Positions 43,987 through 47,989 of a stretch of DNA of 64,000 nt are shown one piece after another. Both the position numbers and the translations under genes were made by a program. Every line of letters starts with the position of its first letter. Position 1 is the first letter of the stretch. Under the pieces are notes generated by a model. The model was not told where the DNA came from, did not search any database, and was given only the letters and a program-made list of their open reading frames with translations. Source of the DNA: Oryzomicrobium sp. (GTDB taxonomy: Bacteria > Pseudomonadota > Gammaproteobacteria > Burkholderiales > Rhodocyclaceae); assembly GCF_021287045.1 (NCBI RefSeq), contig NZ_JAJTBG010000010.1:62001-126000 (forward strand), in the 5' to 3' direction.

Positions 43987-44446
43987 CATGGGCACTACAA
44001 ACGCGGCAAAGCGCCCCCCCCCCCGACACCAAGCCCCCCAAGGGGCGCCACGTAACGACTCGGCAAAATCGCTTTTCCTTGGAGAACATCGGAGCCCCCT
44101 TGGTGCCTGGGTAGTTCGCCTGGCTTTTACCGGGCACGCGGCAAGGCCGATAGGTAACGCCCAAGCCCACCCAGCACCAATACTTGAATTTTTTTAATGT
44201 TTTGAGATCAGCGAATCGTCAAACTCAAGAACTGGCGCCGACCTTGTATTTTCAGCCAGCCGAATACATGAATATTTTTAATACATTGCTCAACCAAGGG
44301 TCGCCAAACGCCTCGCCCTTCACCCTGGGGCACAACCAGGGGTAACACATCTCCCACCGCGCCTTCGCCCCATGCCGGCGAACGGCCGCCCTGCTATCAT
44401 CGCCCTCCTTCCCCGGCCCCGCCGGCACCGCACTGCGAGCACCGCC
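43987..44446. other. Long gap after tex with a C11 tract and AT-rich repeats
   Basis: No gene is supported. The region holds an 11-C homopolymer (44014-44024) and, further on, an AT-rich 28-bp direct repeat (44179-44206 and 44263-44290; 21 of 28 identical, 84 bp apart) in DNA that is otherwise near 65% GC. This AT content is unusual for the window and could mark a protein-binding site or the scar of a lost insertion. Confidence 0.5.
44179..44290. repeat. AT-rich imperfect direct repeat
   Basis: Two 28-bp copies (44179-44206, 44263-44290) sharing AATAC-N-TGAAT-N-TTTTTAAT. The centres are 84 bp apart, eight helical turns. Confidence 0.55.
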
Positions 44447-44797
44447 ATGATCAAGGTTTACGGCATCAAAAATTGCGACACCATGAAGAAGGCCATGACC
44501 TGGCTGACTGACCATGGGGTCGATTATGAATTCGTCGATTACAAGAAAGCCGGCGTGGCTGCCGGGCAGCTGCCGGCCTGGGCCGCCAAAGCTGGCTGGG
44601 AAACCCTGCTCAACCGCAAGGGCCTGACCTGGAAGAAGCTGCCGGAAGAGCGCCGCGCCGACGTGGACGAGGCCGCCGCCCTGGCTCTTATGGCCGAACA
44701 GCCGAGCATGATCAAGCGCCCGGTGATCGAGGTCGGCGACCGGCTGGTGGTGGGCTTCGACCCCGAGGTGTTCGCCCGCACCTTCGCCGCCTGCTGA
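44447..44797 (+). CDS. ArsC/Spx family protein (YffB-like)
   Basis: 116-residue thioredoxin-fold protein. Begins MIKVYGIKNCDTMKKAMTWL; the single Cys10 lies where arsenate reductase has its catalytic residue, followed by DHGVDYEFVDYKKAG and KRPVIEVGDRLVVGFDP. The family includes ArsC, Spx and the E. coli YffB of unknown role; resistance motifs (Arg triad) are not obvious, so arsenate reduction is not claimed. hslO follows 21 bp downstream. Confidence 0.88.
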   Translation: MIKVYGIKNCDTMKKAMTWLTDHGVDYEFVDYKKAGVAAGQLPAWAAKAGWETLLNRKGLTWKKLPEERRADVDEAAALALMAEQPSMIKRPVIEVGDRLVVGFDPEVFARTFAAC

Positions 44798-44818: not shown

Positions 44819-45742
44819 ATGACCCACGCCTCCCCCTCCGCCGGCGCGCCCCAAGGCAGCGTCGGCCAGCCGGACAGCGACTACGTCGCCCGTTTCATCT
44901 TCGACGACCTGGACATCCGCGGCGCCGTGGTGCGCCTCGGCCCGGTGTGGCAGGCCCTCCAGGCCGGGCGCGGCTACAGCGCCCCGGTGGCGCGCCTGCT
45001 CGGCGAGATCACCCTGGCCACCACCCTGGTCGGTTCCCAGCTGAAGCAGCTGGGACGGCTCACCTTGCAGATGCGCGGCGACGGGCCGGTATCCCTGCTC
45101 ATCGTCGATTGCGACGACCAGCTGCGCCTGAAAGGCATGGCCCGGGCCGGGGAAAACGTTCCCGCCGGCCCGGTGCCGGCCCAGTTGGGCGATGGCCAGA
45201 TTTTGCTCACGTTGGAGCTGGAATCGGCCCGCCAGCCCTACCAGAGCTACGTGCCCCTGGAAGGCGACACCATGGGCGCCGTGTTCGAGCACTTCATCGC
45301 CCAGTCCGACCAGCAGCCCACCCGGCTGTGGCTGGCAGTGAGCGAGGAGTCCTGTGCCCTGCTCTTCCTGCAACGCATGCCCAGCGAGGGCGGCGTGGCC
45401 CGGGAAAGCGTGGATGAAGATGGCTGGGACCGGGTGACCCACCTGGCCTCCACGGTGCGCGACGACGAGCTGCTCGGCCTGGCGCCGGAAGTGCTGCTCG
45501 GCCGCCTGTTCGCCGAGGAGACGGTGCGCCTCTACCCATCCCGGGGGGTCACCTATTACTGCCCCTACAACCGGGGCAAAGTGGCCGACATGCTGCTCGG
45601 CCTGGGCCGCAGCGAGGTGGAATCGGTGCTGGAAAGCCAGGGCGTGGTGGAAATCCACGACGACATCTGCAACCACACCTACCGCTTCACCGCCGAGGAC
45701 GTGGCGGCCTTGTTCGACACCGCCGGCAAGACCCGGCATTGA
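44819..45742 (+). CDS. hslO: Hsp33 redox chaperone with a degenerate zinc centre
   Basis: Hsp33 is a holdase activated when oxidation releases zinc from four C-terminal cysteines (CxC and CxxC). This 307-residue protein matches the family along its length (FIFDDLDIRGAVVRLGPVWQ, GEITLATTLVGSQLKQLGRL, then linker and RLFAEETVRLYPSRGVTYYC). But only Cys248 and Cys284 remain: CxC reads C-P-Y (Tyr250) and CxxC reads D-D-I-C (Asp281). Spacing of the two retained Cys (36) equals that in E. coli (Cys232 to Cys268). The redox switch should therefore be altered or lost, while the folding domain is intact. The same strand precedes it with an ArsC-like gene. Confidence 0.93.
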   Translation: MTHASPSAGAPQGSVGQPDSDYVARFIFDDLDIRGAVVRLGPVWQALQAGRGYSAPVARLLGEITLATTLVGSQLKQLGRLTLQMRGDGPVSLLIVDCDDQLRLKGMARAGENVPAGPVPAQLGDGQILLTLELESARQPYQSYVPLEGDTMGAVFEHFIAQSDQQPTRLWLAVSEESCALLFLQRMPSEGGVARESVDEDGWDRVTHLASTVRDDELLGLAPEVLLGRLFAEETVRLYPSRGVTYYCPYNRGKVADMLLGLGRSEVESVLESQGVVEIHDDICNHTYRFTAEDVAALFDTAGKTRH

Positions 45743-46272: not shown

Positions 46273-46533
46273 TCAATGACTGGTCAGCACACCCTTGCGC
46301 CGCACGTAGTCGATCTGGATGGCGTGTTCCCGGGCCAGCTTCTTCATGCGCTTGGCCAGGTTGTGGTTGATGTAGTCGAGCACGATCACCATGTGGTCGA
46401 TCCGGGAGGGAAACGGCCGTGTCAGGTCCGAAGTCTTGCGTCCGGTCCAGTGCACGATGTCGTCGTAGCCCCGAGCCTCCAGGGCGCGACGGGTCGGTTC
46501 GATGTGGTCACCACCAACGATGAGCGCTCGCAT
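46273..46533 (-). CDS. DUF2325 domain protein
   Basis: 86-residue Rossmann-like domain starting MRALIVGGDHIEPTRRALEARGYDDI, with RIDHMVIVLDYINHNLAKRMKKLA and the ending VRRKGVLTSH. The family is widespread in anaerobes and betaproteobacteria, often next to redox, metal or nitrogen-oxide genes; no reaction is known. nnrS lies on the other strand 298 bp beyond its start. Confidence 0.8.
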   Translation of the reverse strand: MRALIVGGDHIEPTRRALEARGYDDIVHWTGRKTSDLTRPFPSRIDHMVIVLDYINHNLAKRMKKLAREHAIQIDYVRRKGVLTSH

Positions 46534-46831
46534 GACGGTTTCGGGCCTCCCAGCCCTGGCCGGTGCCGGCCGAATGAAGACCCGACCGAGTGTAGAGAGG
46601 GACGCTTTATGGCCGAACGAAATTAAACCTTTATAAAAATGCGTTTTCCGATATATGCCAATGAAGCAGATCTGCGCCCCCCGGGAGAGAACCCAGCGGC
46701 TCCGCCGGACAGGGCAAAGCAGCCCGGCCAGCCGAAGCGCCGCCCCGGCAAAAACCCCGGGCAGATCAAAGCAGCGCCGCCCCCGGGCGTGATACATCTG
46801 TGCGCAACGTCACTTTTGCACCGCTACCGCC

Positions 46832-47989
46832 ATGAAGCTTGCTGACCACCCCCTCTGGCTCGTCGGCTTTCGCCCCTTCTTCACTCTCGCCTGCCTGGCC
46901 GGGGTGGTCCTGCCCCTGGTCTGGGCCGTTCTATTCACCGGCGAGTGGCACCACGCCCCGGCCCTGGCCCCGGTGCAATGGCACGCCCACGAGATGTTCT
47001 TCGGCTTCGGCTGGGCGGTGATGGGGGGCTTTCTGCTCACCTCGACCAAGAACTGGGTCAATGTGCGCGGCTACCACGGCGCCCCCCTGATCGCCCTGGT
47101 GGCGGCCTGGCTGGTGGAGCGCTACGCCCTGTGGGCGGGGGCGGACTGGCCCCGGCCCCTCTTCCTGCTGGCCGGCAACCTGTTCCTGCTGGCCATCGTC
47201 GCCATGCTGGCAGCCACCCTGGTGGTACACCGCAAAACCGACTCCTACAAGGACAACGCCATCTTCCTGGTGGTGCTGCCCCTCTTCCTCATCGCCAAAA
47301 ACTTGCTGCTCGACGCCGGCACCTTCGCCCTGGGAGTGACCATGACCCTGGGCCTGTTCCGGATGGCCTTCCTGGTGATGCTGGAGCGGACCGTGACCGC
47401 TTTCATGAAGGGCGCCTTCCAGGTCACCCTGCCCCGCCATGCCGCCCTGGACATGCCGATCAAGGGCCTGGGCCTCGTCCTGGTGGCCGCCGGCTGGCTG
47501 CCGCCGCCGCTGGTGGCGGCCGTCGCCCTGGCCCTGGCGGCCCTGCTGCTGGCGCGCTTCGTCCTCTGGCAGCCGCGGCTGGGGTTGAGCCGGATCGACG
47601 TGGGGGTGATGTACCTGGGTTATCTGGCCATCGTCGCCCAGTTGCTGCTCGAAGCCCTGGCGGTGATCCACCCGGTGGCCTGGGTGGGCACGGTGTCGGT
47701 GCACACCTTCACCTTCGGCGCCATGGGGCTGATCATCCCGGCCATGCTGGTGCGCATCTGCCAGGGCCACACCGGGCGCAAGGTGGTGTTCACCCGGGCC
47801 GACAAGGCGGTGCTGTGGGTGATGATCGCCGGCTTCGTGCTACGCGTGGCGGCGCCCCAGTTCTACCCAGCCGCCTACGGCCACTGGATTCACCTGGCCG
47901 CCCTGTGCTGGGCAGTGGCCTTCGCGGTGCTGGCCTGGCGCTTCGTGCCCCTGCTGTTCCGCCCGCGCATCGACGGGCGAGAGCACTGA
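46832..47989 (+). CDS. nnrS: NnrS family haem/copper membrane protein
   Basis: 385-residue integral membrane protein with about twelve helices; NnrS relieves nitrosative stress and is expressed with denitrification genes. Recognised by MKLADHPLWLVGFRPFF, GEWHHAPALAPVQWHAHEMFFGF and GTVSVHTFTFGAMGLIIPAMLVRICQGHTG-type segment (near residues 288-316), which contain the conserved His residues. No FNR/NnrR palindrome with good match is visible in the 298 bp upstream, and no nir or nor gene is nearby. Confidence 0.88.
   Translation: MKLADHPLWLVGFRPFFTLACLAGVVLPLVWAVLFTGEWHHAPALAPVQWHAHEMFFGFGWAVMGGFLLTSTKNWVNVRGYHGAPLIALVAAWLVERYALWAGADWPRPLFLLAGNLFLLAIVAMLAATLVVHRKTDSYKDNAIFLVVLPLFLIAKNLLLDAGTFALGVTMTLGLFRMAFLVMLERTVTAFMKGAFQVTLPRHAALDMPIKGLGLVLVAAGWLPPPLVAAVALALAALLLARFVLWQPRLGLSRIDVGVMYLGYLAIVAQLLLEALAVIHPVAWVGTVSVHTFTFGAMGLIIPAMLVRICQGHTGRKVVFTRADKAVLWVMIAGFVLRVAAPQFYPAAYGHWIHLAALCWAVAFAVLAWRFVPLLFRPRIDGREH

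Follow-up and report, generated by a model that had tools for sequence, protein, structure and literature searches.

In canonical Hsp33 (HslO), four cysteine thiolates hold one zinc ion, and upon oxidation the cysteines form disulfides, the zinc is freed and the linker is unfolded, as described in PMC4735815 and PMC10598452. The four cysteines are called "absolutely conserved" in PMC4735815 and "fully conserved" in PMC7423844, which gives exceptions at the second in fewer than 10 of 1579 sequences; PMC8004198 stresses a conserved mechanism of Hsp33 inactivation. Reduced E. coli Hsp33 works closed on EF-Tu (PMC8614738). TrypOx from Trypanosoma brucei is, like the protein described here, a divergent Hsp33 homologue, but it differs in being redox-regulated through conserved C-terminal cysteines (PMC7423844). 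In the literature that we searched, whose scope excluded most subscription papers, we found no earlier description of a cysteine-poor Hsp33 in the bacteria considered here.

An hslO gene that lacks two of four zinc ligands

We annotated the following hslO features in the window (the whole stretch of 64,000 nucleotides analyzed here).

44819..45742, forward strand: hslO, reduced-cysteine Hsp33 subfamily, 307 aa (open reading frame, Pfam match and alignment)
44879..45391, forward strand: N-terminal (client- and linker-binding) domain, residues 21-191 (boundary set by us from the alignment)
45392..45535, forward strand: linker region, residues 192-239 (boundary set by us)
45536..45718, forward strand: rewritten C-terminal "redox switch" domain, residues 240-300
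45560..45562, forward strand: C248 (TGC), zinc-ligand position 1 (C1), E. coli C232 by alignment, Cys kept
45566..45568, forward strand: Y250 (TAC), zinc-ligand position 2 (C2), E. coli C234 by alignment, Cys lost
45659..45661, forward strand: D281 (GAC), zinc-ligand position 3 (C3), E. coli C265 by alignment, Cys lost
45668..45670, forward strand: C284 (TGC), zinc-ligand position 4 (C4), E. coli C268 by alignment, Cys kept

The gene is a single open frame from the ATG at 44819 to a stop codon ending at 45742, with no internal stop or frameshift, and its product matches the Pfam family HSP33 (PF01430) over model positions 1-273 of 273 (217.5 bits against a curated cut-off of 21.4), in agreement with the original prediction that the rest of the protein is intact. 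Solved E. coli Hsp33 chains share about 30% identity with it over the aligned part. The switch motifs read C248-P-Y (P249 is CCC, 45563-45565, between C248 and Y250) and D281-D-I-C284, so that C1 and C4 are kept and C2 and C3 are gone. The distance from C248 to C284 is 36 residues, the same as from C232 to C268 in the alignment to E. coli 1i7f (E. coli numbering from PMC4735815). The frame and the alignment thus confirm the central claim of the original prediction, that two of the four zinc/redox cysteines have been lost and that the other two remain at the E. coli spacing.

Canonical Hsp33 (E. coli; B. subtilis 1vzy; T. maritima 1vq0) shares with the window protein the full-length Pfam family, the domain order, the predicted fold and the C1/C4 spacing; it differs in that the window protein lacks C2 and C3, has its own domain consensus and falls below the NCBIfam cut-off for HslO. 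With C-P-Y and D-D-I-C, the window protein does not have the CxC and CxxC zinc cysteines that mark canonical HslO, and it scores 194.1 bits against the equivalog PRK00114, for which the cut-off is 244 bits. All six reduced forms that we tested score below this cut-off (188.7-232.8 bits) and all four four-Cys controls above it (254.8-280.8). A PF01430 search of the genome for a second, canonical Hsp33 matches this one gene only.

The remaining cysteines of the window protein, C98 and C179, both lie in the N-terminal domain. The C-terminal domain has no others, and hence no alternative zinc-binding pair of the kind that the original prediction had named as grounds for doubt. We rejected C98 as a compensating conserved cysteine: it is found in 75/80 two-Cys and 39/45 zero-Cys rows, and it is no replacement for the lost ligands because four-Cys proteins often have it too (65/116 rows).

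Extent of the cysteine loss

We read 117 Hsp33 loci from the Rhodocyclaceae in the broad sense (family f1), where 224 of 248 genomes searched have Hsp33 matches. None of the 117 is four-Cys; 65 have both C1 and C4, four have C1 only and 48 have neither, one of these 48 being a fragment too short to include the second motif. The broad family name reflects 16 f1 loci in which a 120-base stretch is identical to one in a named record, including Azospira oryzae, Candidatus Accumulibacter, Methyloversatilis, Sulfurisoma, Cognatazoarcus and Uliginosibacterium. Some of the 24 genomes with no Hsp33 match are incomplete, and several are listed as 95-99% complete. One internal stop each was reported in the whole-genome search matches of five genomes (G020, G096, G136, G137 and G209; loci L019, L073, L069, L182 and L071), for which reading frame by frame still gave long open frames.

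The loss is shared with a same-genus genome, whose Hsp33 is 79% identical to the window protein and carries the same motifs, and it is the same in kind across the 117 family loci. We reject sequencing error, which the original prediction had raised, because relatives carry the same loss. Together with a decaying gene, against which the low dN/dS (see below) and the absence of a stop or frameshift argue, we regard it as a practically negligible explanation.

Outside f1, 89 other rows were read from the order: 75 have all four cysteines (CCCC), 13 are two-Cys and one, a fragment, covers the first motif alone, its CxC intact. The 13 two-Cys rows come from four families, f16 (six rows, one a duplicate locus), f22 (three), f11 (two) and f43 (two). 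The last of these, which holds Thiobacillus, has matches in 32 of 41 genomes, and the 29 rows read from it comprise 23 two-Cys and 6 CCCC forms; the switch-domain sequence of one row (L466) is identical to that of Thiobacillus thioparus DSM 505 (L295). A metagenome bin named Rhizobium sp. (L310) also has a switch domain identical to the T. thioparus one, and this bin is probably mislabelled.

For the class and the phylum, we used a profile built on the switch domain of reduced forms as query (323 class genomes, 171 with a match; 348 phylum genomes, 214 with a match). Among 58 loci read from these matches, 51 are CCCC, four come from genomes already known to have reduced forms and three are new reduced forms, all from f100, a family of another order. 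In that order 57 of 58 genomes match, and all 31 f100 rows read are two-Cys forms that carry Asn at C3. A further 80 lower-scoring places gave 79 with CxC...CxxC and one cut by a contig end, its CxxC intact. This background covers, among all hits, the 58 top-listed loci and these 80 lower-scoring places.

In a scan of named genomes, the best 80 of 547 confirmed relatives comprise 73 two-Cys forms, seven without C1 and C4 and no CCCC form, a set that is biased because it was chosen as the top matches to a reduced-form query. An earlier scan of named genomes with a single protein as query gave no match. One record, named Ectothiorhodospira shaposhnikovii strain beta1 (L334) for a gammaproteobacterium outside the main clade, holds a reduced form whose four positions read T-x-E and D-x-x-A, and is either a transfer or a mislabelled record.

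Origin of the reduced forms

Trees were built from the columns before the switch domain only (N-terminal domain and linker), so the switch trait does not shape them. In the 201-row tree (five of 206 rows, fragments or a duplicate, were dropped), a single branch (support 99) sets the reduced forms apart from all others. The same holds in a 153-row tree (SH-aLRT 100) and in a careful search of 59 rows (UFBoot/SH-aLRT 100/99, and 100% of 200 bootstrap trees). The window protein groups with the other reduced forms on these columns alone. Based on these trees, the four-thiolate zinc switch was apparently lost a single time, in a subfamily whose Hsp33 fold was retained. The substitution is lineage-wide, as the original prediction had suggested checking, and the reduced forms make up one clade; treating the window protein as a single oddity was too narrow, since it belongs to a whole subfamily that includes members lacking all four cysteines. 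Within the clade, absence of both C1 and C4 takes five changes on the 201-row tree, three of them forced by its starred branches, and on this reconstruction the loss of all four cysteines has recurred.

The f16 genes are nested within those of the Rhodocyclaceae (forks 100/97 and 100/95), and f43 is mixed: its four-Cys row groups with another family of four-Cys forms (100/93). Given this nesting, the mixture in f43 and the presence of f100 in another order, transfer of reduced hslO between families is the simplest reading.

A rewritten switch domain with a conserved predicted fold

Four-Cys proteins have the switch-domain consensus F-x-C-[ST]-C-S-R ... C-[ED]-F-C-N, two-Cys proteins Y-H-C-P-[RE]-D-x-x-K ... 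D-[DE]-I-C-N, and zero-Cys proteins mostly H-x-[WF]-P-x-D ... D-[DE]-L-S-N. The original prediction described the changes as single-codon substitutions and not a frameshift; there is indeed no frameshift, but comparison of the consensus sequences shows that the substitutions are not isolated and that the whole surrounding domain has been rewritten.

We estimated dN/dS over disjoint close pairs (15 two-Cys, 11 zero-Cys and 8 four-Cys). For the switch domain the values are 0.161, 0.137 and 0.071, respectively, and for the N-terminal domain 0.192, 0.168 and 0.098. As the switch domain has no higher dN/dS than the N-terminal domain, it is as constrained as the gene that carries it: the rewritten domain is under purifying selection, at a level like that on the N-terminal domain of the same genes. 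By dN/dS, the rate in reduced-form genes is about double that in four-Cys genes, whichever domain is compared, and given this rate there may be some relaxation in them.

AlphaFold models of the window protein (mean pLDDT 92.8; 96-98 over residues 241-300) and of a zero-Cys member (mean pLDDT 94.5) both match solved Hsp33 structures, including the full-length 1vzy and 1vq0. Compared with closed, full-length Hsp33, the window-protein model has a TM score of 0.78 over 297 columns (1vzy_A), for a fold that is predicted, not solved, and the zero-Cys model a TM score of 0.83 (1vzy). The models suggest that the three-part Hsp33 fold (N-terminal domain, linker and C-terminal domain) is kept even without the four cysteines; they are no proof of metal-free folding, because AlphaFold omits zinc and tends toward folded states. 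Taken with the sequences, they point to a reduced switch domain that has been rebuilt, not abandoned. Loss of a zinc site with retention of the fold is known from the cysteine-free zinc-ribbon ribosomal proteins, in which the metal is structural; the site lost from Hsp33 is instead the published oxidation sensor.

It had also been predicted that this protein must be regulated differently or be constitutively active. The first part stands insofar as textbook four-thiolate regulation is impossible, because half of the tetra-Cys site is gone and the substitution is lineage-wide; constitutive activity finds no support here. A holdase with a broken zinc site and an always-free linker would resemble E. 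coli Hsp33 made constitutively active by single mutations that destabilize the linker (PMC4735815 and PMC10598452), but if the protein were always open, one would expect its lid to decay. Linker and switch domain are instead under purifying selection (linker dN/dS 0.209 in two-Cys and 0.144 in zero-Cys genes) and are modelled as folded, in the closed Hsp33 fold, and we consider this explanation very improbable.

The folded lid is also what one would expect if the subfamily had given up oxidative activation and worked closed, in a reduced-like state, its job being to bind and unfold EF-Tu, for which a folded switch domain would be needed. The domain is conserved and modelled as folded without cysteines, and according to PMC8614738, EF-Tu was bound in E. 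coli by Hsp33 only when it was reduced and its switch domain folded. Such a redox-blind job would have no need of C1 and C4, which most of the two-Cys lineages sampled retain, and we judge this reading unlikely.

The remaining cysteines and candidate metal ligands

In 125 of 129 reduced rows C1 and C4 are kept or lost together, and no row has C4 on its own. The two can be separated, as four f1 rows keep C1 without C4. With about seven changes among the 129 rows, an independent-pairs test of this coupling is not significant. Because the canonical thiolates meet at one ion, the co-occurrence would fit a direct C248-C284 disulfide.

Both remaining cysteines are original zinc ligands, and in the two-Cys protein C248, C284 and D281, with a His, Asp or Glu close by, could still bind a metal, zinc or another, whose oxidative release would still switch the protein, though at a changed affinity or sensitivity. 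An acid (D or E) occupies C3 in 75/80 two-Cys rows, and at least one further candidate ligand is present in 79/80 of them, among the positions counted. The acid is, however, also found in 49/49 rows lacking C1 and/or C4 (124/129 reduced rows in all), which argues that it is not kept for metal; C3 is Asn in the other five two-Cys rows of this set, as it is in all f100 rows read; and the identity of the further ligand varies from row to row. A search for a fixed alternative set of metal ligands gave none beyond the C3 acid. We regard retained metal binding as possible but doubtful.

Gene neighborhood

Three genes flank hslO in the window.

44447..44797, forward strand: ArsC-family (PF03960) gene, ending 21 bases before hslO (start chosen by us; the open reading frame opens at 44372)
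46273-46797, reverse strand: DUF2325 gene, just downstream of hslO
46832-47989, forward strand: NnrS-family gene, just downstream of hslO

We surveyed loci with flanking sequence by tblastn with the window copy of the ArsC gene, a search that could miss a divergent ArsC. The gene lies directly upstream of hslO on the same strand in 54 of 71 judged f1 loci (38/43 two-Cys, 16/25 zero-Cys and 0/3 C1-only; two loci were not judged), in 0/15 loci of other two-Cys families and in 0/96 four-Cys loci. In the named set it is upstream on the same strand in 42/80. This pattern suggests that ArsC and hslO form a family-specific transcription unit. The ArsC gene is not tied to the remaining cysteines, since it is a family trait found alongside both two-Cys and zero-Cys forms. 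The NnrS and DUF2325 genes are found downstream in 3/75 family loci, which is weak evidence of non-conservation as most of these loci reach only about 1.5 kb past the gene.

A proposed mechanism and its meaning

A clade-wide variant of Hsp33 is real, and the sequence facts behind it are firm. The published zinc-release mechanism cannot run as described because two ligands are gone, and since the loss runs through a whole branch of relatives, control of these Hsp33 proteins is probably by some means other than oxidation of four zinc-holding cysteines. We propose that C2 and C3 were replaced in an ancient, separate Hsp33 subfamily, which thereby gave up the four-thiolate zinc switch but otherwise retained its fold. 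Its switch domain would be held by new polar and hydrophobic contacts (made by the conserved P249, D/N at 251, K254, D281 and an aliphatic residue at 283) and would no longer need zinc. In two-Cys members, C248 and C284, placed where the four canonical thiolates meet the zinc, would form a single, one-disulfide thiol switch whose oxidation loosens the linker, probably in combination with heat or some other unfolding stress. Zero-Cys members (such as those in records named Azoarcus and Thauera), for which no such switch is possible, would be thiol-blind, and would open by unfolding stress alone (heat or unfolding oxidants) or work closed. From the sequences and models, we hold this explanation as a whole, a subfamily with a zinc-independent lid, at most a one-disulfide switch and thiol-blind zero-Cys members, to be about evenly balanced between right and wrong.

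We put forward more tentatively, with a little less than even confidence, the broader statement that this subfamily, which fills the Rhodocyclaceae as sampled and also occurs in five further families (one from a different order), has a metal-free lid with a single C248-C284 disulfide, and that part of it has become thiol-blind and is opened by unfolding stress alone. If so, the zinc switch would not be essential to the job of Hsp33, because this subfamily has swapped or dropped it. A clade with two cysteines or none is a natural experiment that splits redox sensing from other possible jobs of Hsp33, such as closed-state action on EF-Tu or heat-only activation, and the name Hsp33 on a gene does not guarantee that its product is the published oxidation sensor.
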